From Archivesica marissinica (lineage: Eukaryota > Mollusca > Bivalvia > Venerida > Vesicomyidae): a stretch of 64,000 bases of DNA. Shown here in pieces: positions 1,156-58,280 of the stretch. The position numbers and the translations under genes were made by a program. The notes under the pieces are model-generated. The model did no database searches. It had not been told where the DNA came from and saw nothing but the letters and a program-made list of their open reading frames with translations. The stretch covers positions 15,210,653-15,274,652 of the forward strand of contig CM026400.1 of the NCBI GenBank assembly GCA_014843695.1, written 5' to 3'. The number at the start of each line of letters is the position of its first letter. Position 1 is the first letter of the stretch.

Positions 1156-1331
1156 GATGGAGAGATGTACTGTATAGATGCACGAAGGTACGGTAACGTG
1201 GCCAGGTTTATCAACCATCTTTGTGAGCCCAATCTGACGCCCGTTAAGGTATTTGTCGACTACCAGGATCTGCGGTTCCCACGCATCTGTCTGTTTGCTA
1301 ACCGTGACATCAGAGCTCAAGAGGAGTTAGG
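1156..1331 (+). CDS. EHMT: EHMT (G9a/GLP) histone H3K9 methyltransferase, central SET-domain exon
   Basis: This 176-bp exon is bounded by TTTTATTGCAG and a GTATGTG donor. It encodes 58 complete residues plus two bases of the next codon (phase 2). The peptide begins [14 protein letters not shown] and contains [10 protein letters not shown], the SET motif in which Asn-His contact the cofactor and target lysine and the Cys joins the post-SET zinc site. It continues with [16 protein letters not shown] and EELG. Order and spacing match animal EHMT1/EHMT2 closely. The open codon GG is completed by the first base of the exon at 7674, giving EELG-FDYG. Ankyrin repeats and pre-SET exons are expected to the left. 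A SINE-E fragment begins about a dozen bases after the donor. The choice between vertebrate names EHMT1 and EHMT2 is not meaningful here, since most invertebrates have one gene. Confidence 0.95.
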
Positions 1332-1342
1332 GTATGTGTAAA

Positions 1343-1470
1343 TCTAAACTTTATTATTTTCCAACGATTGCATAACAAGCTTTAACAACTTATATTTATC
1401 ACTGACAGTGGAGCTATTAGAAGTGTAAATGTGATCCTTCGAATGGGAGGAACCTGGAGAAACTAACATG
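1343..1470 (-). mobile_element. SINE-E fragment next to EHMT donor
   Basis: TAAACTTTATTATTTTCCAA, then TAACAAGCTTTAACAACTTA and GGGAGGAACCTGGAGAAAC match the SINE-E 3' half as seen at 45400-45530. It is diverged and truncated. Confidence 0.6.
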
Positions 1471-1472
1471 TA

Positions 1473-3511
1473 CCATAGCCTACTTGTACAGAGTTATCCC
1501 ACATGTAGAGAGATAGCCTGCTTGTAGAGAGATAGACAACTTGTAGAGAGATAGGCAACTTGTACAGAGACACCTCACTTGTACAGAAATACCACACTTG
1601 TACAGAGATAGCCTACTTGTACAGAGATAGGCAACTTGTACGGAGATACCTCACTTGTACAGATATACCACACTTGTACAGAGATAGCCTACTTGTAGAG
1701 AGATAGGCAACTTGTACGGAGATACCTCACTTGTACAGAGATACCTCACTTGTACAGAGACACCTCACTTGTACAGAGACACCTCACTTGTACAGAAATA
1801 CCTCACTTGTACAGAGATACCTCACTTGTACAGAGACACCTCACTTGTACAGAGACACCTCACTTGTACAGAGATACCTCACTTGTACAGAGATACCTCA
1901 CTTGTACAGAGATACCTCACTTGTACAGAGATACCTCACTTGTACAGAGATACCTCACTTGTACAGAGATACCTCACTTGTACAGAAATACCTCACTTGT
2001 ACAGAGACACCTCACTTGTACAGAGATGCCTCACTTGTACAGAGATACCTCACTTGTACAGAGATACCTCACTTGTACAGAGATGCCTCACTTGTACAGA
2101 GACACCTCACTTGTACAGAGATAACACACTGTACAGAGATACCCTACTTGTACAGAGATAGGCAACTTATACGGAGATACCTCACTTGTACAGAGATACC
2201 TCACTTGTACAGAAATACCACACTTGTACAGAGATACCCTACTTGTACAGAGATAGGCAACTTTTACGGAGATACCTCACTTGTACAGAGATACCTCACT
2301 TGTACAGAGATACCTCACTTGTACAGAGACACCTCACTTGTACAGAGATAACACACTGTACAGAGATAACACACTGTACAGAGATACCTCACTTGTACAG
2401 AGATACCTCACTTGTACAGAGATACCTCACTTGTAAAGAGACACCTCACTTGTACAGAGATAACACACTGTACAGAGATAACACACTGTACAGATATACC
2501 CTGCTTGTAGAGAGATAGGCAACTTGTACGAAGATACCTCACTTGTACAGAGATACCTCACTTGTACAGAGATAGCCTACTTATACAGAGATAGGCAACC
2601 TGTACGGAGATACCTCACTTGTACAGAGATACCTCACTTGTACAGAGATAGCCTACTTGTACAGAAATACCTCACTTGTACAGAGATACCTCACTTGTAC
2701 AGAGATAGCCTACTTGTACAGAAATACCTCACTTGTACAGAGATACCTCACTTGTACAGAAATACCACACTTGTACAGAGATACCCTACTTGTACAGAGA
2801 TAGGCAACTTTTACGGAGATACCTCACTTGTACAGAGATACCTCACTTGTACAGAGATACCTCACTTGTACAGAGACACCTCACTTGTACAGAGATAACA
2901 CACTGTACAGAGATAACACACTGTACAGAGAAACCTCACTTGTACAGAGATACCTCACTTGTACAGAGACACCTCACTTGTACAGAGACAACACACTGTA
3001 CAGAGATAACACACTGTACAGATATACCCTACTTGTAGAGAGATAGGCAACTTGTACGGAGATACCTCACTTGTACAGAGATACCTCACTTGTACAGAGA
3101 TAGCCTACTTGTACAGAGATAGGCAACCTGTACGGAGATACCTCACTTGTACAGAGATACCTCACTTGTACAGAGATAGCCTACTTGTACAGAAATACCT
3201 CACTTGTACAGAGATACCTCACTTGTACAGAAATACCTCACTTGTACAGAGATAGCCTACTTGTACAGAAATACCTCACTTGTACAGAGATACCTCACTT
3301 GTACAGAAATACCTCACTTGTACAGAGATACCTCACTTGTACAGAAATACCTCACTTGTATTTCTATACCTCACTTGTACAGAGATACCTCACTTGTACA
3401 GAAATACCTCACTTGTACAGAAATACCTCACTTGTACAGAAATACCTCACTTGTACAGAAATACCTCACTTGTATTTCTATACCTCACTTGTACAGAAAT
3501 ACCTCACTTAT
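1473..3511. repeat. 19-bp minisatellite (CTTGTACAGAGATACCTCA)n
   Basis: About 105 copies of a 19-bp unit, with recurrent variants (GATAGCCTA, GACACCTCA, GATAACACACTG). Higher-order blocks are visible, such as the segment with GATAGGCAACTT recurring at about 2160, 2250, 2515, 2800 and 3040. As 19 is not a multiple of three, all three frames give cyclic repeat peptides; these are not genes. The right end is cut by a transposon at 3512, and remnant unit sequence resumes at 6966. Confidence 0.97.
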
Positions 3512-4245
3512 GGGTCATTCCAGGTCAAATCAACCAGTTTTCAAAAACGTCCCCAGTTGATCCCCTCAGAATTCAGTTATTTTTTAATAACATAAACTAT
3601 AACATATATTATTAAGCTGTGCAAAATTTCAGCTCAAAATATCCAATAGTTTTTTAAATATAGGCCTAGAAAGACACTATGGGGGGGGGGGCGCGATTTC
3701 GCGGGCTTTTTTACGCGTATAATAAAAACCAATTTTGTTAAGCCTATAACTTTTTATTGAGACTAGGTAAAGCCTTGAAATTTTCAGGTTATGTTCATAA
3801 ACCCACATACTCTGCCACATACAAACAGAGGCTCAATATATGCACAATGGTCTTTTGTGTACAGCTAGTCTAAAATTAAGTTTCCCCATCCGTAAACGCA
3901 TGCAGACCAACATTTGGCCTTTGGCCAGACCAAAACTAATAATCCCAGCACCTTCAAATTTTGTATACACAATCCCTGCCACCTTGTGCACCAACTTGTG
4001 TAATAACACCTCTGTACATGCAATACTTTGTGAGATATTGACATCCAAAATTGAACTAATTTTAATTGTAGTATGAATTGTATCATATTTTTCACCCGGT
4101 GGGATAGGTGATACAGGCAAGTGTAATAGTTCATATTAAACTGTGACATGTCCTCTTTCAGGTGATACCAAACACATATTGCTTCCATGAAGCCTTTTGT
4201 AGGAAAAAAAATGTTTAAAAACATACGTATTCGCCATTCGCGACA
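3512..4245 (+). repeat. Left terminal inverted repeat of the 3.45-kb transposon
   Basis: This is about 730 bp, inverted and highly similar to 6235-6965. Both arms contain the C/G homopolymer beside GCGCGATTTCGCGGGC. Both inner ends read TGTAGG, then an A-run, then ATGTTTAAAAACATAC and GCCATTCGCGA before diverging. Confidence 0.9.
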
Positions 4246-4339
4246 TTCAATTATATTGCATATATGCATACATTTGCAATTCAAAACAGTTGTAACACAA
4301 ACAATATATCAGTAGATAGATACCTTGTTGGCCTACTCA

Positions 4340-4726
4340 CTATGTGGCAACTATTGTGTCACAAAATAACTTGAACTTGTGTGCAACTTCCTTTGAAGAT
4401 TTGGCATTCAGCTTGTATATACGCCCAGTTGAAGTCGTCAAGCCATCGATAGAAGCCAAGATATGTGGCTTTGGCACCCAACACTGGTCTTTTCTGCTTG
4501 GCCATGAAAATGACTTTGCTGGACCTTTGGGGTGCAGAAAGTCAACAAGAATATCCTCAGGTTCAACTTCAACAACATTACCCAGAAACCACTCTCCATC
4601 GTAAAACGCAGCAACATACTGTCCCGGGTGTAGATCTAGGCCAACTGACATATCATCTTCTTCATTTATGTCACTGATTCTAACATTTGTTGCTGTGTTA
4701 TCACCAGAGATTCTGCTTATTTTCAA
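4340..4726 (-). pseudogene. C-terminal Tudor-like domain of the transposase, out of frame
   Basis: This frame of about 128 codons has no ATG at its start (TTG at 4726-4724) and overlaps the stop of the 497-residue transposase frame in a different phase. The peptide DLHPGQYVAAFYDGEWFLGN, then VEPEDILVDFLHPKGPAKSF and CWVPKPHIL resembles the Tudor-like or small-barrel C-terminus that, in my recollection of related transposon proteins, follows the catalytic part. The likeliest reading is one ancestral protein broken by a one-base indel or joined by a -1 shift near 4726. An intron or separate protein is less likely, as no splice sites are evident. Confidence 0.6.
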
Positions 4727-6216
4727 GTTGTACTTATGTCTATGGGTATGAAACAGTGATGACTTCTTGTACCTGGTACTTTTTTCGCACTTGCAAACCG
4801 TGTTGCTTGTCCAGGATGAAATTTATCCACTTCAGTGTTTGAGACATAGAAAAACTGTATACCAGTGATGTGTGCTGCAGCCCACTGATATAGTTCCAAT
4901 GGTGTCAAAATATGGTTTGCTGATGTGCGCTGAAGACTGGCTCGTGTGGCCAACCGTTTAACTGTACCTCCTATGCCATCACATATGCTCTTTCCGTGGC
5001 TTGTAGCAAAGAAATGCCATTCTGCAGTTACTCCAAAATCTTCAATATGCATGCCTAGATTCGCAAAGTTTTTGAAGTTTTTGTATTGGCTTGCAGCCCC
5101 ATCACTATAGTATTTCACGTGGCGTACATTTGGCAGTTCATTTTGTATATGCTTTAGAATATCATGTAGGAATGCATACACAGTCACCGTGCCATGTGCC
5201 ATGCAATCACTTATCACACAGAGAGACATGCAGCATAACTTTCCACTGTTGTCGAGGTAGTATACCCCAAATGGGTGTAGCGTGGCCTGCTTATTTTCCC
5301 AATAAAATCCTTGGATGGAATCTTGTATGATAAAGGAGTAATTCTCTGCAAAGTCCAGAAGAATTATTACAGTGTTTTCTGTCAGATTTTCTTTGCAGTT
5401 GGCAAGATAGGTAGCCTGAGATTTGGAAATGAAATGGTGTGTTGTGAGTTCATCATACTGCTTGCAAAGTATTGTGATGAAGTCGGAAACCGTCTCATGT
5501 CGCGCCACTATTGTGATTCGGTCAGTATGATCCCACTGCCTGAATGTTATCAGATCATCATCATCCATATCCAAGTCTTCAGAGATCAGACGTTGTATAT
5601 GAGTGCGCAGCATTTCAACACCAGGACACAGATCGTATCTGTGTATCATACAATCTTTTGATTTTAAGTCGCACACAATAATTGACATCAATTCTGTGTA
5701 ATCCAATTTCAGTTTCGCGACAGCAGCTAACAGAAGCTTGGCATTTTGATGAATTTCACACACGCAGACGGAATGAGCACCCTTGGCACCAACAGTGATA
5801 CACCAAGGAGGCCGTAAATCACAAAATTTGGAAAATCCTATCTTGTACTCTGCTTGTGGCCTTTTCTCTTTGAACAACACATATAGTTCATGAAGATTGG
5901 CAAGCAATAGTCGTTTTTGTTTGTGAATTTTTTGTCCATCTATTTTCACAGACACAAACTCTTTTTTCCCTGGGCACAGACGGGTGTATTCATCGTCTTC
6001 ATAAAATTCAACTACCGCTTTCTGTGTCTCTGGTGATAATTCTTTTCCATGCTTTGGGCTCGGCTCTGAAAACACACCATGTGACTGCTTCAAAGATCGT
6101 GCTTTCTTCACCATATATTCTGAAACATTGAACTCTTCAGCAGTCTTTTTATAGACCAACTTGATGGCGACATTGTAAGAATTTGAAGTTTCTTCTGCTT
6201 TGTTGAGATGGCACAT
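4723..6216 (-). CDS. DDE/D-type transposase of the 3.45-kb element
   Basis: An uninterrupted 497-residue frame between the long inverted repeats. The N-terminal ~60 residues (KKTAEEFNVSEYMVKKARSL) look like a helix-turn-helix region. A Cys/His-rich segment follows (CDLRPPWCITVGAKGAHSVC, then CEIHQN, residues ~132-158). The catalytic candidates are acidic residues in IILLDFAENY (D288), YYSDGAASQYKN (D372) and SHGKSICDGIGGTVKR (D413); the last two have the shape typical of RNase-H-fold transposases. The protein would cut and rejoin the element's ends. The frame stops at ISTT, where the C-terminal Tudor-like segment continues in another phase, so activity is doubtful. I know this family from invertebrate genomes but cannot name its superfamily with certainty; Sola-like is my best guess. 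Confidence 0.8.
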   Translation of the reverse strand: MCHLNKAEETSNSYNVAIKLVYKKTAEEFNVSEYMVKKARSLKQSHGVFSEPSPKHGKELSPETQKAVVEFYEDDEYTRLCPGKKEFVSVKIDGQKIHKQKRLLLANLHELYVLFKEKRPQAEYKIGFSKFCDLRPPWCITVGAKGAHSVCVCEIHQNAKLLLAAVAKLKLDYTELMSIIVCDLKSKDCMIHRYDLCPGVEMLRTHIQRLISEDLDMDDDDLITFRQWDHTDRITIVARHETVSDFITILCKQYDELTTHHFISKSQATYLANCKENLTENTVIILLDFAENYSFIIQDSIQGFYWENKQATLHPFGVYYLDNSGKLCCMSLCVISDCMAHGTVTVYAFLHDILKHIQNELPNVRHVKYYSDGAASQYKNFKNFANLGMHIEDFGVTAEWHFFATSHGKSICDGIGGTVKRLATRASLQRTSANHILTPLELYQWAAAHITGIQFFYVSNTEVDKFHPGQATRFASAKKVPGTRSHHCFIPIDISTT

Positions 6217-6234
6217 TTCTCCTTCATATCAATA

Positions 6235-6965
6235 TTTACATCGCGAATGGCCAATATGTATGTTTTTAAACATTTTTTTTCCTACAGAAGGCTTCATGGA
6301 AGCAATATGTGTTTGGTATCACCTGAAAGAGGACATGTCACAGTTTAATATGAACTATTACACTTGCCTGTATCACCTATCCCACCGGGTGAAAAATATG
6401 ATACAATTCATACTACAATTAAAATTAGTTCAATTTTGGATGTCAATATCTCACAAAGTATTGCATGTACAGAGGTGTTATTACACAAGTACCAAGCACA
6501 AGGTGGTAGGGATTGTGTATACAAAATTTGAAGGTGCTGGGATTATTAGTTTTGGTCTGGCCAAAGGCCAAATGTTGGTCTGCATGCGTTTACGGATGGG
6601 GAAACTTAATTTTAGACTAGCTGTACACAAAAGACCATTGTGCATATATTGAGCCTCTGTTTGTATGTGGCAGAGTATGTGGGTTTATGAACATAACCTG
6701 AAAATTTCAAGGCTTTACCTAGTCTCAATAAAAAGTTATAGGCTTAACAAAATTGGTTTTTATTATACGCGTAAAAAAGCCCGCGAAATCGCGCCCCCCC
6801 CCCCCATAGTGTCTTTCTAGGCCTATATTTAAAAAACTATTGGATATTTTGAGCTGAAATTTTGCACAGCTTAATAATATATTCCATAGTTTATGTGATT
6901 AAAAATTTAAAGAATTCTGAGGGGGTCAGCTGGGGAGCCCTGGTTGATTTGACCTGGAATGACCC
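6235..6965 (-). repeat. Right terminal inverted repeat of the 3.45-kb transposon
   Basis: Mirror of 3512-4245 with a few substitutions, for example the insertion AGCTGGGGAGCCC near 6927-6940. The open frame inside it (6200-6652) is non-coding TIR sequence, also present in the left arm. Confidence 0.9.
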
Positions 6966-6983
6966 TTATATAGAGAGATATCC

Positions 6984-7673
6984 CATGGATATATATGTTG
7001 CAGGTTTGATTATGGATATATCTGTTGCAGGTTTGATTATGGATATATATGTTGCAGGTTTGATTATGGGTATATCTGTTGCAGGTTTGATTATGGATAT
7101 ATATGTTGCAGGTTTGATTATGGATATATCTGTTGCAGGTTTGATTATGGATATATATGTTGCAGGTTTGATTACGGATATATATGTTGCAGGTTTGATT
7201 ATGGATATATATGTTGCAGGTTTGATTACAGATATATATGTTGCAGGTTTGATTATGGATATATATGTTGCAGGGGGTTGATTATGGATATATATGTTGC
7301 AGGGGTTTGATTATGGATATATATGTTGCAGGGGGTTGATTATGGATATATATGTTGCAGGGGTTTGATTATGGATATATATGTTGCAGGTTTGATTATG
7401 GATATATATGTTGCAGGGGTTTGATTATGGATATATATGTTGCAGGGGTTTGATTACGGATATATATGTTGCAGGGGTTTGATTATGGATATATATGTTG
7501 CAGGGGTTTGATTATGGATATATATGTTGCAGGGGTTTGATTACGGATATATATGTTGCAGGGTTTGATTACGGATATATATGTTGCAGGGTTTGATTAC
7601 GGATATATATGTTGCAGGGTTTGATTACGGATATATATGTTGCAGGGTTTGATTACGGATATATATGTTGCAG
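6984..7673 (+). repeat. 27-bp minisatellite of repeated EHMT splice acceptors
   Basis: About 25 copies of a 27-29-bp unit: GTTTGATTACGG (or GATTATGG) followed by ATATATATGTTGCAG. The last unit is the real junction: TTGCAG at 7668-7673 precedes the EHMT exon starting GTTTGATTACGGTGAG. So every unit holds an AG acceptor plus the first 12 bases of the exon (codons FDYG). Units in the middle and right carry one to four extra G after CAG and are 28-29 bp long, which breaks frame. There is no polypyrimidine tract; the acceptor context is AT-rich. Confidence 0.97.
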
Positions 7674-7830
7674 GTTTGATTACGGTGAGAAGTTTTGGAT
7701 TATTAAGTGGAAAGAGTTTACGTGTACGTGCGGATTGCAGAAATGTCGCTACTCGAGCGAAACAATACAGAAAACACTGGAGGAATATCGGCTACGGCAT
7801 GAACTGGACGGAGAGCAAGGACAAGACTGA
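7674..7830 (+). CDS. EHMT: EHMT (G9a/GLP) last exon: FDYG catalytic motif, post-SET and stop
   Basis: The first base completes a Gly codon from the exon ending at 1331; the frame then reads [29 protein letters not shown] and ends [10 protein letters not shown] with TGA at 7828-7830. FDYG holds the conserved catalytic tyrosine of EHMT SET domains. CTCGLQKC is the post-SET C-x-C-x4-C that binds zinc together with the Cys of NHLC in the previous exon. The tail after post-SET is short, as is usual for this family. The start of this exon is the source of, or was copied into, the 27-bp array just upstream. All three key sites (NH, Y, post-SET Cys) are intact, so the gene looks functional if the right acceptor is used. 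Confidence 0.95.
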
Positions 7831-19462: not shown

Positions 19463-19817
19463 ACACACACACAGACCCCATCACCTTAGCCAGATATAAG
19501 ATACAAGGAACTTATTTAACGTCGTTGAATTGCAATGATAATTACCATTAGCTAAACAGTTATGCTTCCGATATACATTTAGTTCTTATTCCACCAATAA
19601 CCTATCAGATCTACATTTAATATATACTAGAGGACATGGAAAATGCACACTTCGGATGAGTGTGTTTTTACATGTAAAACTATAACTATATAAATACATA
19701 ATTTTGAACATTTTGGAATAGTTTTAGTTGTTCAGTTTGTGTTTTGTAATAAAGATGTGATATATCTTTGATGGAATCCTTCGTATTTCGTTTTCATGTA
19801 ATAATAATCATATATGT
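19463..19817. other. Unique sequence with one inverted 36-bp unit
   Basis: At 19618-19652 the sequence TATATACTAGAGGACATGGA plus AAATGCACACTT is a diverged reverse complement of the 36-bp unit that is tandemly repeated from 19818. No gene seen. Confidence 0.6.
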
Positions 19818-20208
19818 AGGTGTGCGTTTTCTATGTCCTCTAGTATATAATGTAGGTGTGCGTGTTCTACGTTCTCTAGTATATAATGTGGGTGTGCGTT
19901 TTCTATGTCCTCTAGTATATAATGTAGGTGTGCGTTTTCTATGTCCTCTAGTATATAATGTAGGTGCGCGTTTTCTATGTCCTCTAGTATATAATGTAGG
20001 TGTGCGTTTTCTATGTCCTCTAGTATATAATGTAGGTGCGCGTTTTCTATGTCCTCTAGTATATAATGTAGGTGTGCGTTTTCTATGTCCTCTAGTATAT
20101 AATGTAGGTGTGCGTTTTCTATGTCCTCTAGTATATAATGTAGGTGTGCGTTTTCTATGTCCTCTAGTATATAATGTAGGTGTGCGTTTTCTATGTCCTC
20201 TAGTATAT
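19818..20208. repeat. 36-bp minisatellite, left part
   Basis: Eleven units of TGTAGGTGTGCGTTTTCTAT followed by GTCCTCTAGTATATAA. Unit length 36 keeps all frames open, giving YNVGVRFLCPLV repeats; this is not considered coding. A transposon interrupts the array at 20209 and it resumes at 24385. Confidence 0.95.
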
Positions 20209-24384: not shown

Positions 24385-25146
24385 ATATAATGTAGGTGTG
24401 CGTTTTCTATGTCCTCTAGTATATAATGTAGGTGTGCGTTTTCTATGCCCTCTAGTATATAATGTATGTGTGCGTTTTCTATGTCCTCTAGTATATAATG
24501 TAGGTGTGCGTTTTCTATGTCCTCTAGTATATAATGTAGGTGTGCGTTTTCTATGTCCTCTAGTATATAATGTAGGTGTGCGTTTTCTATGTCCTCTAGT
24601 ATATAATGTAGGTGTGCGTTTTCTATGTCCTCTAGTATATAATGTAGGTGTGCGTTTTCTATGTCCTCTAGTATATAATGTAGGTGTGCGTTTTCTATGT
24701 CCTCTAGTATATAATGTAGGTGTGCGTTTTCTATGTCCTCTAGTATATAATGTAGGTGTGCGTTTTCTATGTCCTCTAGTATATAATGTAGGTGTGCGTT
24801 TTCTATGTCCTCTAGTATATAATGTAGGTGTGCGTTTTCTATGTCCTCTAGTATATAATGTAGGTGTGCGTTTTCTATGTCCTCTAGTATATAATGTAGG
24901 TGTGCGTTTTCTATGTCCTCTAGTATATAATGTAGGTGTGCGTTTTCTATGTCATCTAGTATATAATGTAGATATGCGTTTTCTATGTCATCTAGTATAT
25001 AATGTAGGTGTGCGTTTTCTATGTCATCTAGTATATAATGTAGGTATGCGTTTTCTATGTCATCTAGTATATAATGTAGGTATGCGTTTTCTATGTCATC
25101 TAGTATGTAATGTGGATGTGCGTTTTTTATGTCCTCTGGTATAACA
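24385..25146. repeat. 36-bp minisatellite, right part
   Basis: Twenty-one units of the same 36-bp repeat as at 19818-20208. The first ~15 are nearly identical (GTCCTCTAG); the last six carry GTCATCTAG and GATATGCG/GTATGCG changes. The decay is at the array edge, away from the insertion. Confidence 0.95.
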
Positions 25147-43867: not shown

Positions 43868-44318
43868 AACGAGTATGATCTTGTCTTAACATAATTACTT
43901 CCCAATTGTTTGATGCCAGGCACCAGGTATGATCTTGTCTTTAACATGATTACTTCCCAATTGTTTGATGCCAGGCACCAGGTAGATCTTGTCTTTAACA
44001 TAATTACTTCCCAATGTTTTGATGCCAGGCACCAGGTATGATCTTGTCTTTAACATAATTACTTCCCAATTGTTTTGATGCCAGGCACCAGGTATGATCT
44101 TGTCTTTAACATGATTACTTCCCAATTGTTTTGATGCCAGGCACCAGGTATGATCTTGTCTTTAACATAATTACTTCCCAATTGTTTTGATGCCAGGCAC
44201 CAGGTATGATCTTGTCTTTAACATAATTACTTCCCAATTGTTTTGATGCCAGGCACCAGGTATGATCTTGTCTTTAACATAATTACTTCCTAATTGTTTT
44301 GATGCCAGGCACCAGGTA
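43868..44318. repeat. 56-bp minisatellite
   Basis: Eight units of TGATCTTGTCTTTAACATAA, TTACTTCCCAATTGTTTTGA, TGCCAGGCACCAGGTA. Minus-strand peptides are artefacts. Confidence 0.95.
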
Positions 44319-45392: not shown

Positions 45393-45645
45393 CAGTTTAA
45401 ACTTTATTTATTTTACAACAATTGCGAAGCAAGTTCTAACAACTTATATTAATCACTCTCGTTGGCGCTGGTGAAAGCGTATATGTGGTCATTCGTGTGG
45501 GAGGAAATCGGAGTACCCGGAGGAAACTATCTATCCGATCTGGCGACCACCGTACCATCTCACATACTTCCCGGTCTGAGGATTGAACCCGGGTTGCATT
45601 AGTGAGAAGCGAGCGTGCTAACCACTGTGCTAATCGGACAGCCGA
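45393..45645 (-). mobile_element. SINE-E, directly after the RXR exon-2 donor
   Basis: CAGTTTAAACTTTATTTATT, CAATTGCGAAGCAAGTTCTA, TATTAATCACTCTCGTTGGC, GAGGATTGAACCCGGGTTGC (B-box side) and CGTGCTAACCACTGTGCTAA. Full-length or nearly so. Confidence 0.88.
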
Positions 45646-46045: not shown

Positions 46046-47705
46046 CAAGAAGCACGGTTGTGATGTCAATCATGTCCTCTTAAATCTACATTGCCTCTAG
46101 TCTCTCCGTCATGGTGATGTCCTCTGACATCTCTTAAATCTACATTGCATATTCTCTCCGTTATGGTGATGTCTGACATCTCTTATATCTACATTGCCTC
46201 TAGTCTCTCCGTCATGGTGATGTCCTCTGACATCTCTTAAATCTACATTACCTCTAGTCTCTCCGTCATGGTGATGTCCTCTGACATCTCTTAAATCTAC
46301 ATTGCCTCTAGTCTCTCCGTCATGGTGATGTCCTCTGACATCTCTTAAATCTACATTACCTCTAGTCTCTCCGTCATGGTGATGTCCTCTGACATCTCTT
46401 AAATCTACATTACCTCTAGTCTCTCTGTCATGGTGATGTCCTTTGGCATCCCTTAAATCTACATTACCTCTAGTCTCTCCGTCATGGTGATGTCCTCTGA
46501 CATCTCTTAAATCTACATTGCCTCTAGTCTCTCCGTCATGGTGATGTCCTCTGACATCTCTTAAATCTACATTACCTCTAGTCTCTCCGTCATGGTGATG
46601 TCCTCTGACATCTCTTAAATCTACATTACCTCTAGTCTCTCTGTCATGGTGATGTCCTTTGGCATCCCTTAAATCTACATTACCTCTAGTCTCTCCGTCA
46701 TGGTGATGTCCTCTGGAATCTCTTAAATCTACATTGCCTCTAGTCTCTCCGTCATGGTGATGTCCTCTGACATCTCTTAAGTGTACATTGCCTCTAGTCT
46801 CTCCGTCATGGTGATGTCCTCTTAAATCTACATTACCTCTAGTCTCTCCATCATAGTGATGTCCTCTGGCATCTCTTAAATCTACATTGCCTCTAGTCTC
46901 TCTGTCATGGTGATGTCCTCGGGCAAGACTCTTAAATCTACATTGCCTCTAGTCTCTCCGTCATTGTGCTGTCCTCTGGCATCTCTTAAATCTACATTGC
47001 CTCTAGTCTCTCCGTCGTGGTGATGTCCTCAGGCAAGACTCTTAAATCTACATTGCCTCTAGTCTCTCCGTCATAGTGATGTCCTCAGACAAGACTCTTA
47101 AATCTACATTGCCTCTAGTCTCTCCGTCATGGTGATGTCCCCAGGCAAGACTCCTAAATCTACATTGCCTCTAGTCTCTCCGTCATGGTGATGTCCTCAG
47201 ACAAGACTCTTAAATCTACATTGCCTCTAGTCTCTCCGTCATAGTGATGTCCTCAGACAAGACTCTTAAATCTACATTGTCTCTAGTCTCTCCATTGTGG
47301 TGATGTCCTCAGGCAAGACTCTTAAATCTACATTGCCTCTAGTCTCTCCGTCATGGTGATGTCCCCAGGCAAGACTCCTAAATCTACATTGCCTCTAGTC
47401 TCTCCGTCATTGTGATGTCCTCTGGCATCTCTTAAATCTACATTGCCTCTAGTCTCTCTGTCATGGTGATGTCCTCCGGCATCTCTTAAATCTACATTAC
47501 CTCTAGTCTCTCTGTCATGGTGATGTCCTTTGGCATCCCTTAAATCTACATTACCTCTAGTCTCTCCGTCATGGTGATGTCCTCTGACATCTCTTAAATC
47601 TACATTGCCTCTAGTCTCTCCGTCATTGTGATGTCCTCTGGCATCTCTTAAATCTACATTGCCTCTAGTCTCTCCGTCATGGTGATGTCCTCTGACATCT
47701 CTTAA

Positions 47706-47941
47706 CCCTATCAACACCAAGTAACTGACATGGACTGGTGCATGCTATTTTCAGACCAATAAATTAATAACAAAATTATATTTGGATCAGTTCATTTATC
47801 AAAATGGGTAAAAAAAATTCTAAAAATAGTTATATTACTTGAAAAAAGTGCAGATCCTGATGAGACGGCTCATCACGAGCCGGCTCATCTGGATCTACAC
47901 TTTTTTGTAAGCCAATTTAGTGGTCTGTGGTGTTGAGAGGG
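47706..47941. mobile_element. TTAA-flanked MITE in satellite, copy 1
   Basis: CCCTATCAACACC...GGTGTTGAGAGGG, TTAA on both sides. The satellite's own CTCTTAAATC supplies the TTAA target. Confidence 0.9.
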
Positions 47942-49598
47942 TTAAATCTACATTGCCTCTAGTCTCTCTGTCATGGTGATGTCCTCAGGCAACACTCTTA
48001 AATCTACATTGCATCTTCTCTCTAGTCTCTCTGTCATGGTGATGTCCTCGGGCAATACTCTTATATCTACATTGCCTCTAGTCTCTCCGTCATGGTGATG
48101 TCCTTAGGCAAGACTCCTAAATCTACACTGCCTCTAGTCTCTCCGTCATGGTGATGTCCTCCGGCAAGACTCCTAAATCTACATTGCCTCTAGTCTCTCT
48201 GGTCATGGTGATGTCCCCAGGCAAGACTCCTAAATCTACATTGCCTCTAGTCTCTCCGTCATGGTGATGTCCCCAGGCAAGACTCCTAAATCTACATTGC
48301 CTCTAGTCTCTCTGTCATGGTGATGTCCCCAGGCAAGACTCCTAAATCTACATTGCCTCTAGTCTCTCCGTCATGGTGATGTCCCCAGGCAAGACTCCTA
48401 AATCTACATTGCCTCTAATCTCTCCGTCATGGTGATGTCCCCAGGCAAGACTCCTAAATCTACATTGCCTCTAGTCTCTCTGTCATGGTGATGTCCTTTG
48501 GCATCCCTTAAATCTACATTGCCTCTAGTCTCTCCGTCATGGTGATGTCCTCTGGCATCTCTTAATTCTACATTGCATCTAGTCTCTCCGTCATGGTGAT
48601 GTCCTCTGGAATCTCTTAAATCTACATTGCCTCTAGTCTCTCCGTCATGGTGATGTCCTCTGACATCTCTTAAGTGTACATTGCCTCTAGTCTCTCCGTC
48701 ATGGTGATGTCCTCTTAAATCTACATTACCTCTAGTCTCTCCATCATAGTGATGTCCTCTGGCATCTCTTAAATCTACATTGCCTCTAGTCTCTCTGTCA
48801 TGGTGATGTCCTCGGGCAAGACTCTTAAATCTACATTGCCTCTAGTCTCTCCGTCATTGTGCTGTCCTCTGGCATCTCTTAAATCTACATTGCCTCTAGT
48901 CTCTCCGTCGTGGTGATGTCCTCAGGCAAGACTCTTAAATCTACATTGCCTCTAGTCTCTCCGTCATAGTGATGTCCTCAGACAAGACTCTTAAATCTAC
49001 ATTGCCTCTAGTCTCTCCGTCATGGTGATGTCCCCAGGCAAGACTCCTAAATCTACATTGCCTCTAGTCTCTCCGTCATGGTGATGTCCTCAGACAAGAC
49101 TCTTAAATCTACATTGCCTCTAGTCTCTCCGTCATAGTGATGTCCTCAGACAAGACTCTTAAATCTACATTGTCTCTAGTCTCTCCATTGTGGTGATGTC
49201 CTCAGGCAAGACTCTTAAATCTACATTGCCTCTAGTCTCTCCGTCATGGTGATGTCCCCAGGCAAGACTCCTAAATCTACATTGCCTCTAGTCTCTCCGT
49301 CATTGTGATGTCCTCTGGCATCTCTTAAATCTACATTGCCTCTAGTCTCTCTGTCATGGTGATGTCCTCCGGCATCTCTTAAATCTACATTACCTCTAGT
49401 CTCTCTGTCATGGTGATGTCCTTTGGCATCCCTTAAATCTACATTACCTCTAGTCTCTCCATCATGGTGATGTCCTCTGACATCTCTTAAATCTACATTG
49501 CCTCTAGTCTCTCCGTCATTGTGATGTCCTCTGGCATCTCTTAAATCTACATTGCCTCTAGTCTCTCCGTCATGGTGATGTCCTCTGACATCTCTTAA

Positions 49599-49834
49599 CC
49601 CTATCAACACCAAGTAACTGACATGGACTGGTGCATGCTATTTTCAGACCAATAAATTAATAACAAAATTATATTTGGATCAGTTCATTTATCAAAATGG
49701 GTAAAAAAAATTCTAAAAATAGTTATATTACTTGAAAAAAGTGCAGATCCTGATGAGACGGCTCATCACGAGCCGGCTCATCTGGATCTACACTTTTTTG
49801 TAAGCCAATTTAGTGGTCTGTGGTGTTGAGAGGG
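49599..49834. mobile_element. TTAA-flanked MITE in satellite, copy 2
   Basis: Same sequence as copy 1, 1893 bp downstream; carried by segmental duplication rather than new insertion. Confidence 0.9.
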
Positions 49835-52188
49835 TTAAATCTACATTGCCTCTAGTCTCTCTGTCATGGTGATGTCCTCAGGCAACACTCTTAAATCTAC
49901 ATTGCATCTTCTCTCTAGTCTCTCTGTCATGGTGATGTCCTCGGGCAATACTCTTATATCTACATTGCCTCTAGTCTCTCCGTCATGGTGATGTCCTTAG
50001 GCAAGACTCCTAAATCTACACTGCCTCTAGTCTCTCCGTCATGGTGATGTCCTCCGGCAAGACTCCTAAATCTACATTGCCTCTAGTCTCTCTGGTCATG
50101 GTGATGTCCCCAGGCAAGACTCCTAAATCTACATTGCCTCTAGTCTCTCCGTCATGGTGATGTCCCCAGGCAAGACTCCTAAATCTACATTGCCTCTAGT
50201 CTCTCTGTCATGGTGATGTCCCCAGGCAAGACTCCTAAATCTACATTGCCTCTAGTCTCTCCGTCATGGTGATGTCCCCAGGCAAGACTCCTAAATCTAC
50301 ATTGCCTCTAATCTCTCCGTCATGGTGATGTCCTCAGGCAAGACTCCTAAATCTACATTGCCTCTAGTCTCTCTGTCATGGTGATGTCCCCAGGCAAGAC
50401 TCCTAAATCTACATTGCCTCTAGTCTCTCTGTCATGGTGATGTCCTCTGGCATCTCCTAAATCTACACTGCCTCTAGTCTCTCCGTCATGGTGATGTCCT
50501 CAGACAAGACTCTTAAATCTACACTGCCTCTAGTCTCTCCGTCATGGTGATGTCCTCAGACAATACTCTTAAATCTACACTGCATCTAGTCTCTCTGTCA
50601 TGGTGATGTCCCCAGGCAAGACTCCTAAATCTACATTGCCTCTAGTCTCCGTCATGGTGATGTCCCCAGGCAAGACTCCTAAATCTACATTGCCTCTAGT
50701 CTCCGTCATGGTGATGTCCCCAGGCAAGACTCCTAAATCTACATTGCCTCTAGTCTCTCCGTCATGGTGATGTCCTCTGACATCTCTTAAATCTACATTG
50801 CCTCTAGTCTCTCCGTCATGGTGATGTCCTCTGACATCTCTTAAATCTACATTACCTCTAGTCTCTCCGTCATGGTGATGTCCTCTGACATCTCTTAAAT
50901 CTACATTACCTCTAGTCTCTCTGTCATGGTGATGTCCTTTGGCATCCCTTAAATCTACATTGCCTCTAGTCTCTCCGTCATGGTGATGTCCTCTGACATC
51001 TCTTAAATCTACATTGCCTCTAGTCTCTCCGTCATGGTGATGTCCTCTGACATCTCTTAAATCTACATTACCTCTAGTCTCTCCGTCATGGTGATGTCCT
51101 CTGGCATCTCTTAAATCTACATTGCCTCTAGTCTCTCCGTCATGGTGATGTCCTCTGGCATCTCTTAAATCTACATTACCTCTAGTCTCTCCGTCATGGT
51201 GATGTCCTCTGGCATCTCTTAAATCTACATTGCCTCTAGTCTCTCCGTCATGGTGATGTCCTCTGACATCTCTTAAGTGTACATTGCCTCTAGTCTCTCC
51301 GTCATGGTGATGTCCTCTTAAATCTACATTACCTCTAGTCTCTCCATCATAGTGATGTCCTCTGGCATCTCTTAAATCTACATTGCCTCTAGTCTCTCTG
51401 TCATGGTGATGTCCTCGGGCAAGACTCTTAAATCTACATTGCCTCTAGTCTCTCCGTCATTGTGCTGTCCTCTGGCATCTCTTAAATCTACATTGCCTCT
51501 AGTCTCTCCGTCGTGGTGATGTCCTCAGGCAAGACTCTTAAATCTACATTGCCTCTAGTCTCTCCGTCATAGTGATGTCCTCAGACAAGACTCTTAAATC
51601 TACATTGCCTCTAGTCTCTCCGTCATGGTGATGTCCTCTGGCATCTCTTAAATCTACATTGCCTCTAGTCTCTCCGTCATGGTGATGTCCTCTGACATCT
51701 CTTAAATCTACATTGCCTCTAGTCTCTCCGTCATGGTGATGTCCTCTGACATCTCTTAAATCTACATTGCATCTACTCTCTCCGTCATGGTGTCCTCTGA
51801 CATCTCTTAAATCTACATTGCATCTAGTCTCTCCGTCATGGTGATGTCCTCTGGCATCTCTTAAATCTACATTGCCTCTAGTCTCTCCGTCATTGTGATG
51901 TCCTCTGGCATCTCTTAAATCTACATTGCCTCTAGTCTCTCTGTCATGGTGATGTCCTCCGGCATCTCTTAAATCTACATTACCTCTAGTCTCTCTGTCA
52001 TGGTGATGTCCTTTGGCATCCCTTAAATCTACATTACCTCTAGTCTCTCCGTCATGGTGATGTCCTCTGACATCTCTTAAATCTACATTGCCTCTAGTCT
52101 CTCCGTCATTGTGATGTCCTCTGGCATCTCTTAAATCTACATTGCCTCTAGTCTCTCCGTCATGGTGATGTCCTCTGACATCTCTTAA

Positions 52189-52424
52189 CCCTATCAACAC
52201 CAAGTAACTGACATGGACTGGTGCATGCTATTTTCAGACCAATAAATTAATAACAAAATTATATTTGGATCAGTTCATTTATCAAAATGGGTAAAAAAAA
52301 TTCTAAAAATAGTTATATTACTTGAAAAAAGTGCAGATCCTGATGAGACGGCTCATCACGAGCCGGCTCATCTGGATCTACACTTTTTTGTAAGCCAATT
52401 TAGTGGTCTGTGGTGTTGAGAGGG
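52189..52424. mobile_element. TTAA-flanked MITE in satellite, copy 3
   Basis: Same sequence, 2590 bp after copy 2. Confidence 0.9.
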
Positions 52425-54081
52425 TTAAATCTACATTGCCTCTAGTCTCTCTGTCATGGTGATGTCCTCAGGCAACACTCTTAAATCTACATTGCATCTT
52501 CTCTCTAGTCTCTCTGTCATGGTGATGTCCTCGGGCAATACTCTTATATCTACATTGCCTCTAGTCTCTCCGTCATGGTGATGTCCTTAGGCAAGACTCC
52601 TAAATCTACACTGCCTCTAGTCTCTCCGTCATGGTGATGTCCTCCGGCAAGACTCCTAAATCTACATTGCCTCTAGTCTCTCTGGTCATGGTGATGTCCC
52701 CAGGCAAGACTCCTAAATCTACATTGCCTCTAGTCTCTCCGTCATGGTGATGTCCCCAGGCAAGACTCCTAAATCTACATTGCCTCTAGTCTCTCTGTCA
52801 TGGTGATGTCCCCAGGCAAGACTCCTAAATCTACATTGCCTCTAGTCTCTCCGTCATGGTGATGTCCCCAGGCAAGACTCCTAAATCTACATTGCCTCTA
52901 ATCTCTCCGTCATGGTGATGTCCCCAGGCAAGACTCCTAAATCTACATTGCCTCTAGTCTCTCTGTCATGGTGATGTCCTTTGGCATCCCTTAAATCTAC
53001 ATTGCCTCTAGTCTCTCCGTCATGGTGATGTCCTCTGGCATCTCTTAATTCTACATTGCATCTAGTCTCTCCGTCATGGTGATGTCCTCTGGAATCTCTT
53101 AAATCTACATTGCCTCTAGTCTCTCCGTCATGGTGATGTCCTCTGACATCTCTTAAGTGTACATTGCCTCTAGTCTCTCCGTCATGGTGATGTCCTCTTA
53201 AATCTACATTACCTCTAGTCTCTCCATCATAGTGATGTCCTCTGGCATCTCTTAAATCTACATTGCCTCTAGTCTCTCTGTCATGGTGATGTCCTCGGGC
53301 AAGACTCTTAAATCTACATTGCCTCTAGTCTCTCCGTCATTGTGCTGTCCTCTGGCATCTCTTAAATCTACATTGCCTCTAGTCTCTCCGTCGTGGTGAT
53401 GTCCTCAGGCAAGACTCTTAAATCTACATTGCCTCTAGTCTCTCCGTCATAGTGATGTCCTCAGACAAGACTCTTAAATCTACATTGCCTCTAGTCTCTC
53501 CGTCATGGTGATGTCCCCAGGCAAGACTCCTAAATCTACATTGCCTCTAGTCTCTCCGTCATGGTGATGTCCTCAGACAAGACTCTTAAATCTACATTGC
53601 CTCTAGTCTCTCCGTCATAGTGATGTCCTCAGACAAGACTCTTAAATCTACATTGTCTCTAGTCTCTCCATTGTGGTGATGTCCTCAGGCAAGACTCTTA
53701 AATCTACATTGCCTCTAGTCTCTCCGTCATGGTGATGTCCCCAGGCAAGACTCCTAAATCTACATTGCCTCTAGTCTCTCCGTCATTGTGATGTCCTCTG
53801 GCATCTCTTAAATCTACATTGCCTCTAGTCTCTCTGTCATGGTGATGTCCTCCGGCATCTCTTAAATCTACATTACCTCTAGTCTCTCTGTCATGGTGAT
53901 GTCCTTTGGCATCCCTTAAATCTACATTACCTCTAGTCTCTCCATCATGGTGATGTCCTCTGACATCTCTTAAATCTACATTGCCTCTAGTCTCTCCGTC
54001 ATTGTGATGTCCTCTGGCATCTCTTAAATCTACATTGCCTCTAGTCTCTCCGTCATGGTGATGTCCTCTGACATCTCTTAA

Positions 54082-54317
54082 CCCTATCAACACCAAGTAA
54101 CTGACATGGACTGGTGCATGCTATTTTCAGACCAATAAATTAATAACAAAATTATATTTGGATCAGTTCATTTATCAAAATGGGTAAAAAAAATTCTAAA
54201 AATAGTTATATTACTTGAAAAAAGTGCAGATCCTGATGAGACGGCTCATCACGAGCCGGCTCATCTGGATCTACACTTTTTTGTAAGCCAATTTAGTGGT
54301 CTGTGGTGTTGAGAGGG
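54082..54317. mobile_element. TTAA-flanked MITE in satellite, copy 4
   Basis: Same sequence, 1893 bp after copy 3 and 4483 bp after copy 2. Confidence 0.9.
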
Positions 54318-56309
54318 TTAAATCTACATTGCCTCTAGTCTCTCTGTCATGGTGATGTCCTCAGGCAACACTCTTAAATCTACATTGCATCTTCTCTCTA
54401 GTCTCTCTGTCATGGTGATGTCCTCGGGCAATACTCTTATATCTACATTGCCTCTAGTCTCTCCGTCATGGTGATGTCCTTAGGCAAGACTCCTAAATCT
54501 ACACTGCCTCTAGTCTCTCCGTCATGGTGATGTCCTCCGGCAAGACTCCTAAATCTACATTGCCTCTAGTCTCTCTGGTCATGGTGATGTCCCCAGGCAA
54601 GACTCCTAAATCTACATTGCCTCTAGTCTCTCCGTCATGGTGATGTCCCCAGGCAAGACTCCTAAATCTACATTGCCTCTAGTCTCTCTGTCATGGTGAT
54701 GTCCCCAGGCAAGACTCCTAAATCTACATTGCCTCTAGTCTCTCCGTCATGGTGATGTCCCCAGGCAAGACTCCTAAATCTACATTGCCTCTAATCTCTC
54801 CGTCATGGTGATGTCCTCAGGCAAGACTCCTAAATCTACATTGCCTCTAGTCTCTCTGTCATGGTGATGTCCCCAGGCAAGACTCCTAAATCTACATTGC
54901 CTCTAGTCTCTCTGTCATGGTGATGTCCTCTGGCATCTCCTAAATCTACACTGCCTCTAGTCTCTCCGTCATGGTGATGTCCTCAGACAAGACTCTTAAA
55001 TCTACACTGCCTCTAGTCTCTCCGTCATGGTGATGTCCTCAGACAATACTCTTAAATCTACACTGCATCTAGTCTCTCTGTCATGGTGATGTCCCCAGGC
55101 AAGACTCCTAAATCTACATTGCCTCTAGTCTCCGTCATGGTGATGTCCCCAGGCAAGACTCCTAAATCTACATTGCCTCTAGTCTCCGTCATGGTGATGT
55201 CCCCAGGCAAGACTCCTAAATCTACATTGCCTCTAGTCTCTCTGTCATGGTGATGTCCCCAGACAAGACTCCTAAATCTACATTGCCTCTAGTCTCTCCG
55301 TCATGGTGGTGTCCTCAGACAAGACTCCTAAATCTACATTGCCTCTAGTCTCTCCATCATGGTGATGTTCTCTGACATCTCTTAAATCTACATTACCTCT
55401 AGTCTCTCCGTCATGGTGATGTCCTTTGGCATCCCTTAAATCTACATTGCCTCTAGTCTCTCCATCATGGTAATGTCCTCTGGCATCTCTTAATTCTACA
55501 TTGCATCTAGTCTCTCCATCATGGTGATGTCCTCTGGCATCTCTTAAATCTACATTGCCTCTAGTCTCTCCGTCATGGTGATGTCCTCTGGCATCTCTTA
55601 AATCTACATTGCCTCTAGTCTCTCCGTCATGGTGATGTCCTCTGGCATCTCTTAAATCTACATTACCTCTAGTCTCTCTGTCATGGTGATGTCCTCTGGC
55701 ATCTCTTAAATCTACATTGCCTCTAGTCTCTCCGTCATGGTGATGTCCTCTGACATCTCTTAAATCTACATTACCTCTAGTCTCTCTGTCATGGTGATGT
55801 CCTCTGGCATCTCTTAAATCTACATTGCCTCTAGTCTCTCCGACATGATGTCCTCTGACATCTCTTAAATCTACATTGCCTCTAGTCTCTCCGTCATGGT
55901 GATGTCCTCTGACATCTCTTAAATCTACATTGCATCTACTCTCTCCGTCATGGTGTCCTCTGACATCTCTTAAATCTACATTGCATCTAGTCTCTCCGTC
56001 ATGGTGATGTCCTCTGGCATCTCTTAAATCTACATTACCTCTAGTCTCTCCGTCATGGTGATGTCCTCTGGCATCTCTTAAATCTACATTGCCTCTAGTC
56101 TCTCCGTCATGGTGATGTCCTCTGACATCTCTTAAATCTACATTGCCTCTAGTCTCTCCGTCATGGTGATGTCCTCTGACATCTCTTAAATCTACATTGC
56201 ATCTACTCTCTCCGTCATGGTGTCCTCTGACATCTCTTAAATCTACATTGCATCTAGTCTCTCCGTCATGGTGATGTCCTCTGGCATCTCTTAAATCTAC
56301 ATTGCCTCT

Positions 56310-56440
56310 AGTCTCTCCGTCACGGTCATGGATTCCAATGTGAATGATGTCTCGAGAGTGACTAATCTAATGTTGTAAGAACTTGGCAATTGAGCTAGCT
56401 ACATGTACAGTCATGTAACGTAAATTTTGTATGAACTAAG
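56310..56440 (+). mobile_element. SINE-D 3' half at the right edge of the satellite
   Basis: CGGTCATGGATTCCAATGTG, AATGATGTCTCGAGAGTGAC, TAATCTAATGTTGTAAGAAC, TTGGCAATTGAGCTAGC match the SINE-D tail at 27713-27800. It anchors the origin of the 54-bp unit. Confidence 0.8.
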
Positions 56441-57197: not shown

Positions 57198-58197
57198 NNN
57201 NNNNNNNNNNNNNNNNNNNNNNNNNNNNNNNNNNNNNNNNNNNNNNNNNNNNNNNNNNNNNNNNNNNNNNNNNNNNNNNNNNNNNNNNNNNNNNNNNNNN
57301 NNNNNNNNNNNNNNNNNNNNNNNNNNNNNNNNNNNNNNNNNNNNNNNNNNNNNNNNNNNNNNNNNNNNNNNNNNNNNNNNNNNNNNNNNNNNNNNNNNNN
57401 NNNNNNNNNNNNNNNNNNNNNNNNNNNNNNNNNNNNNNNNNNNNNNNNNNNNNNNNNNNNNNNNNNNNNNNNNNNNNNNNNNNNNNNNNNNNNNNNNNNN
57501 NNNNNNNNNNNNNNNNNNNNNNNNNNNNNNNNNNNNNNNNNNNNNNNNNNNNNNNNNNNNNNNNNNNNNNNNNNNNNNNNNNNNNNNNNNNNNNNNNNNN
57601 NNNNNNNNNNNNNNNNNNNNNNNNNNNNNNNNNNNNNNNNNNNNNNNNNNNNNNNNNNNNNNNNNNNNNNNNNNNNNNNNNNNNNNNNNNNNNNNNNNNN
57701 NNNNNNNNNNNNNNNNNNNNNNNNNNNNNNNNNNNNNNNNNNNNNNNNNNNNNNNNNNNNNNNNNNNNNNNNNNNNNNNNNNNNNNNNNNNNNNNNNNNN
57801 NNNNNNNNNNNNNNNNNNNNNNNNNNNNNNNNNNNNNNNNNNNNNNNNNNNNNNNNNNNNNNNNNNNNNNNNNNNNNNNNNNNNNNNNNNNNNNNNNNNN
57901 NNNNNNNNNNNNNNNNNNNNNNNNNNNNNNNNNNNNNNNNNNNNNNNNNNNNNNNNNNNNNNNNNNNNNNNNNNNNNNNNNNNNNNNNNNNNNNNNNNNN
58001 NNNNNNNNNNNNNNNNNNNNNNNNNNNNNNNNNNNNNNNNNNNNNNNNNNNNNNNNNNNNNNNNNNNNNNNNNNNNNNNNNNNNNNNNNNNNNNNNNNNN
58101 NNNNNNNNNNNNNNNNNNNNNNNNNNNNNNNNNNNNNNNNNNNNNNNNNNNNNNNNNNNNNNNNNNNNNNNNNNNNNNNNNNNNNNNNNNNNNNNNN
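57198..58197. other. Assembly gap, 1000 N
   Basis: Exactly 1000 ambiguous bases, a placeholder length. It separates a SINE-E copy from a ~30-bp tandem repeat that leads to RXR exon 3. Reading frames through the Ns have no meaning. Confidence 1.
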
Positions 58198-58280
58198 ATA
58201 TAAACACAGTAAATTTGCCCCCTTGTGAAGAATAAACACAATAAACTTGCCCCCCTGTGGAATATAAACATAGTAAATTT
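58198..58280. repeat. ~30-bp tandem repeat abutting the RXR exon-3 acceptor
   Basis: Three visible units: ATAAACACAGTAAATTTGCC plus CCCTTGTGAAG, then AATAAACACAATAAACTTGC plus CCCCCTGTGGAA, then TATAAACATAGTAAATTTACATTTCAG. The last unit contains the acceptor. The array probably extends into the gap. Confidence 0.85.

Follow-up and report, generated by a model that had tools for sequence, protein, structure and literature searches.

A minisatellite with 25 copies of a splice acceptor at the last coding boundary of a bivalve EHMT gene

Described minisatellites at exon edges

Minisatellites that span intron-exon boundaries have been described as "mirages" in amphioxus genes (PMC3087553, PMC3902484), namely in Adh3 and in the globins BflGb6 and BflGb9 in the excerpts of PMC3087553, with similar repeats in PGBD5 and a mention of troponin C in those of PMC3902484. 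According to the former excerpts, many of the copies have an AG/GT and might serve as cryptic splice sites, and Adh3 data together with globin RT-PCR suggested no interference with regular splicing (PMC3087553). BflGb6 carries six or three units of 150-160 bp, depending on haplotype, and the units of Adh3 measure 10-72 bp, as far as the same excerpts go (PMC3087553). Like these mirages, the array in the last intron of the EHMT gene considered here repeats an intron-exon boundary in tandem, in the manner of a minisatellite, and keeps the AG. As in the excerpted account of BflGb6, the 3′ end of an intron and the 5′ part of an exon have been duplicated. Unlike the amphioxus mirages, the EHMT array lies in a bivalve, has a unit of 27-29 bp and offers 25 acceptors.

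The human IFI6 (6-16) minisatellite, said to have been described by Turri in 1995, reportedly supplies multiple splice donor sites; it is said to sit at an exon edge, with its copies reported as alternative donors. Both it and the EHMT array provide many copies of a splice signal, donors in IFI6 and acceptors in EHMT. Intron 7 of human F7 contains 37-bp repeats, the first of which holds the true site, and the most upstream, exon-adjacent donor alone is normally used in the excerpted account (PMC6627357). F7 is again a case of donors, in which the exon-adjacent site is transcribed first, whereas the exon-adjacent acceptor of EHMT is transcribed last. In potato RdRp, a tandem duplication across an intron-exon boundary is described as having created a new intron (PMC4974935). 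Like the EHMT array, this duplication crosses the boundary and copies the 3′ splice site and a putative branch site; the abstract of PMC4974935 describes a duplication with a new intron and no array, whereas EHMT has an array. A literature search for boundary minisatellites in bivalves found no paper, which is not proof of their absence. The EHMT array is a real and tidy case of a known, little-studied kind, from outside the group in which that kind was described. It suggests that mirages are not confined to amphioxus, and it bears on intron gain through boundary duplication.

The EHMT gene and its boundary array

The window, that is, the whole 64,000-nucleotide stretch of DNA analysed here, starts only 1155 bp 5′ of an EHMT exon at 1156, and the open frame around this exon (1144-1341) matches Pfam SET at E 3.5e-13. 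Joining 1331 to 7674 yields a 110-aa SET/post-SET end, which contains the end of the SET domain with ELGFDYG as well as the post-SET cysteines; its residues 1-99 align with EHMT2 (human structures) at E 1.8e-42, and this alignment runs through the junction (eelgfdyg). On sequence similarity, the gene is an EHMT (G9a/GLP) H3K9 methyltransferase. Since this spliced end matches the human EHMT2 structures, the last unit of the array is the true junction: the terminal unit is a genuine coding-exon boundary, where the frame of the exon ending at 1331 continues across 7673|7674, and both FDYG and the post-SET cysteines are encoded 3′ of it. Coordinates of the main features are collected in Table 1.

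TRF reports the boundary array as a single array (period 27, 25.0 copies, 95% matches, score 1126), and an array of such a score is not due to chance. Read directly, the sequence has 25 TTGCAG acceptors between 7003 and 7673, all 25 with the splice signal AG intact; a 26th TTGCAG (7735-7740) sits inside the exon, outside the array. The 24 spacings between the acceptors are 27 bp (11 of them, units 1-10 and 15), 29 bp (nine, units 11-14 and 16-20) and 28 bp (four, units 21-24). The basic unit consists of GTTTGATTACGG from the exon and ATATATATGTTGCAG from the intron, and the 28- and 29-bp units are this unit with one or two additional bases in the G run after CAG. CAG and TTGATTA are invariant in 24/24 units, with variation confined to the G run and four single columns. 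The variants lie in blocks: alternating A/C variants occupy units 1-6, mid-array is mostly 29-bp units, and the exon side is made of four identical 28-bp units. The initial annotation had proposed a unit of 15 intron and 12 exon bases, about 25 near-identical acceptors in a row, a final unit that is the true junction, an EHMT gene, and the exon-intron boundary itself as the amplified unit, all of which the direct reading and the EHMT2 alignment bear out. The pattern, which the annotation called unusual, is rarely described, but the kind is not new, since amphioxus mirages precede it.

The coding consequences of each acceptor were derived by joining the exon ending at 1331 to all 25 acceptors in turn and reading to a stop. 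The real stop is reached from acceptor 25 (7673|7674) only, and all 24 upstream acceptors truncate the protein ahead of the post-SET residues, because the intervening 29- and 28-bp units break the frame. The 27-bp units are mutually in frame and read FDYGYICCR, so that products of acceptors 1-10 contain repeats of this peptide (ten units from acceptor 1, one from acceptor 10) before the frame shifts and meets a stop within the 29-bp block; the products of acceptors 1-9 include unit 9, which is read as FDYRYICCR. Products of 12-21 residues, the split glycine counted, come from acceptors 11-14 and 16-20; among them FDYG appears, in the wrong place, in the product of acceptor 20 alone. The product of acceptor 15 is 21 residues long and has one FDYGYICCR following the glycine, and acceptors 21-24, the closest to the exon, give glycine, valine and a stop. 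The initial annotation had expected in-phase upstream acceptors to insert FDYGYICCR next to the catalytic tyrosine, an expectation that fails here: because every upstream acceptor truncates, the array cannot add this peptide to a complete enzyme, and such an addition is contradicted for this allele and assembly.

Table 1. Positions of the features at the EHMT end of the window
Feature	Position	Strand	Basis
Penultimate EHMT exon (SET domain), 58 codons + 2 nt, end ..EEL-GG, donor GG|GTATGT	1156..1331	+	Pfam SET, EHMT2 structures, sequence
Last EHMT intron, 6342 bp: ~150 bp non-array DNA, 19-bp array, DNA transposon, 27-bp boundary array	1332..7673	+	
Second minisatellite of the intron: 19-bp unit, 103.2 copies over 1558-3509; 38-bp period over 1482-3509	1482..3509	+	TRF
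DNA transposon; its long terminal inverted repeats form four arm pairs of 93-100% complementarity	3512..6965	.	repeat search; ends placed by eye
Mirage, a boundary-spanning minisatellite: 25 copies, each with the final 15 nt of the intron and the initial 12 nt of the exon	6985..7682	+	TRF, sequence
ATGG with which the array opens (-19..-16 relative to acceptor 1); likely seed microhomology	6985..6988	+	sequence
Decoy acceptor 8, junction 7192|7193; matches true site from -28 to +9	7192..7193	+	sequence
Units 21-24, four identical 28-bp units adjoining the exon; acceptors 21-24 give EELG-V-stop	7562..7673	+	sequence
Last EHMT coding exon, FDYGEKF.. post-SET to TGA	7674..7830	+	frame test, EHMT2 alignment
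Further minisatellite, 44/63/132-bp periods (rows merged), starting 41 bp past the EHMT stop codon	7871..10587	+	TRF

Acceptor choice, origin and competing explanations

Unit 8 is the only decoy identical to the true site over -20..+3, and the other 23 decoys differ from it by 1-3 bases. Acceptors 2-25 have TTGATTA with its A at -22, a motif that resembles the branch site consensus YTNAY; acceptor 1 has no such motif within 40 nt. The pyrimidine tract of the true site is weak (47% pyrimidine over 17 nt), and the three other coding acceptors of the window have 53-71%, of which RXR1 was measured one base off register. Local sequence by itself would give a model no means of distinguishing the true site from unit 8. 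RNA structure that masks the decoys is not indicated in the one stretch folded: the exon-proximal 291 nt (7470-7760) showed no unusual RNA fold (z +1.40) and were no more stable than shuffles, 188 of 200 being at least as stable. Under scanning models, the 3′ splice site that is preferred is the first AG downstream of the branch point (PMC3250501, PMC2875228, both in excerpt), and the excerpted PMC2875228 includes many instances that scanning alone does not explain. A scanning model predicts use of the unit whose branch point is chosen, which would not necessarily be the last one, because each of acceptors 2-25 has its own TTGATTA with the A at -22. The array pits 25 near-identical 3′ splice sites against one another, and a first-AG rule would pick the wrong one; it is a natural competition assay in which 24 acceptors share the branch-like motif and its distance and differ mainly in position. 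The true site is here the last to be transcribed, in contrast to the first in donor arrays like that of F7; because the correct acceptor comes last, the array sets exon definition apart from "first served" and "first AG" rules.

In our judgement, the array is probably a mirage that was seeded at an ATGG microhomology and then expanded, with splicing mostly to the exon-attached acceptor. The seed may have been a tandem duplication between ATGG at -19..-16 and ATGG at +9..+12 (..GATTATGG..), the product of which would be a 27-bp unit with the acceptor, the branch-like TTGATTA and the exon start; a duplication between two such copies would yield exactly this length. In keeping with the position of the first copy, the array opens at an intronic ATGG (CCCATGGATATATATG), and the TRF phase begins at the ATGG of 6985. 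The exonic part of the units ends in TATGG or TACGG, with one unit in TACAG, and units with TAT carry ATGG at this place. TAT is found in 16 of the 24 units, and the exon itself now reads TAC, so the seed microhomology would be 4 bp only if the exon formerly read TAT. The unit would then have been multiplied and locally homogenised in blocks while the length of the G run changed, a block-wise pattern of variants that is the ordinary signature of local minisatellite duplication. With the added G residues, every upstream acceptor misses the real stop, and complete EHMT can come from acceptor 25 only. The spliceosome would mostly pick this last acceptor because it alone joins the real exon body (exon definition, enhancers), with the rest of the array leaving as intron; some leak to upstream acceptors is possible, which would lower EHMT output. 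The reports of undisturbed splicing at amphioxus mirages (PMC3087553, PMC3902484) and of normal use of the exon-adjacent F7 donor alone (PMC6627357) speak for this choice of the last acceptor. The birth of arrays is common here, because the window has 20 merged minisatellite arrays, of which 13 are at least 300 bp long and which together account for 24.8 kb, or 39%, of its length (by TRF; rows entered by hand, with separate rows scoring below about 100 omitted). On the whole, the array is probably not a device for protein diversity and probably a tolerated by-product of a minisatellite-rich genome.

Several other explanations were weighed against this one. The array could act as a splicing decoy that sets the dose of EHMT, with some transcripts using upstream acceptors to make SET proteins cut before the post-SET zinc cysteines, in a fraction that tracks array length. 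The truncation by 24/24 upstream acceptors, the whole AG in all 25, the local identity of one decoy to the true site, and the location of the truncating stops, which would fall in the terminal exon and thus probably escape junction-dependent decay, are consistent with this. Nevertheless, no sign of selection on the array was found, although a single allele could hardly reveal any, amphioxus mirages are reported in excerpts of the two papers without splicing disturbance (PMC3087553, PMC3902484), and a dosage role seems unlikely. An extension of this idea is rather improbable. In it, boundary arrays would recur in the lineage and shape gene structure as a general force, the amount of the H3K9 methyltransferase would depend on the 24 truncating acceptors of the EHMT array as a ladder of variable copy number, and individuals or tissues would therefore differ in EHMT dose.

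An origin of the copy number, or of the array itself, in collapsed or expanded repeats of the assembly would fit with the 1000-N gap (57198-58197) that directly adjoins another array of the window and with the aberrant assembly of the BflGb6 mirage in the amphioxus draft genome (PMC3087553, in excerpt). We consider it very unlikely, as the variants form ordered blocks (27, 29 and 28 bp; alternating A/C), not one unit repeated, and 19 further merged arrays occur in the same window. Re-splicing, by which CAG|GT acceptors would rebuild a donor-like GTTTGA upon joining and a wrong splice would be spliced again to later AGs until the exon is reached, could build on CAG|GTTTGA at 11 of the 24 upstream sites and at the true site. 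However, GTTTGA matches the usual donor poorly, and 13 of the 14 exon-nearest units (11-24 except 15) start with GG, GGG or GGGG, which leaves such a ladder with a remote likelihood. Isoform diversity through in-frame insertion of FDYGYICCR would draw on the common frame of the 27-bp units and is scarcely tenable given the frame test, in which 0/24 upstream acceptors arrive at the real stop.

Surrounding arrays and mobile elements

The abundance of arrays also bears on how surprising a boundary array should be. When 20 arrays were placed randomly, 6.1% of trials had at least one edge no more than 13 nt from any of seven coding junctions, and 0.17% had two such edges; coding overlap of up to 13 nt and overlap among arrays were allowed, the RXR1 junction was off by one base in the input, and the RXR array had an input length of 93 bp. 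In the window itself, two edges are near junctions, that of EHMT at 9 nt and that of an RXR array at 12 nt from an acceptor, and they were counted after both had been seen. The coincidence of an array with a coding junction is less improbable than it looks at first sight. No claim is made that arrays seek junctions, because the count was made post hoc and it is not established that the RXR array runs on into its exon (fixed-register p 0.005, or 0.02 with four registers; local-alignment p 0.54).

This short array (58200-58277), beside the 1-kb gap, ends 12 nt before the exon of the RXR DNA-binding domain (acceptor 58289|58290), where a second mirage is possible. Upstream of an RXR exon, a 56-bp array (43873-44318) has a unit, ..TTTTGATGCCAG GCACCAG GTATGATC.., that looks like an acceptor, 7 nt and a donor. 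TRF also reports a 10-kb array of 54-bp units (46077-56330) between two RXR exons; pieces of its open frames recur 4483 bp apart (48404/52887, 49221/53704), which suggests a higher-order or assembly duplication. Two further arrays about 4 kb apart (19810-20208 and 24385-25143) have a 36-bp unit (ATATAATGTAGGTGTGCGTTTTCTATGTCCTCTAGT) in common.

Within the EHMT intron, the transposon sits between the 19-bp array and the boundary array and is flanked by a probable 4-bp target duplication, TTAT (3508-3511 and 6966-6969). Its 501-aa open frame (4723-6228, minus strand) had no match in Pfam or NCBIfam, and when 6960-7003 was compared with the window by BLAST, the 19-bp array was not matched at E 1e-4. 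A dispersed repeat, found as ten BLAST pieces in the window with the query counted, occurs at 1345-1452 and at 45398-45627, where it starts 14 and 18 nt past two of the three coding donors (EHMT 1331 and RXR 45380) in the same orientation. With ten starts placed at random, two donors had a same-strand start within 20 nt in a fraction of 1.5e-5 of 200,000 trials, in a post hoc test with an approximate repeat start; the repeat could settle at, or supply, 5′ splice sites. The window also contains a LINE, for which two of the 120 matches listed of 177 bear an animal species name, Pinctada imbricata and Mizuhopecten yessoensis. The same listed matches include one invertebrate metagenome and several MAGs of Candidatus Thiodiazotropha, which are symbionts of lucinid clams.
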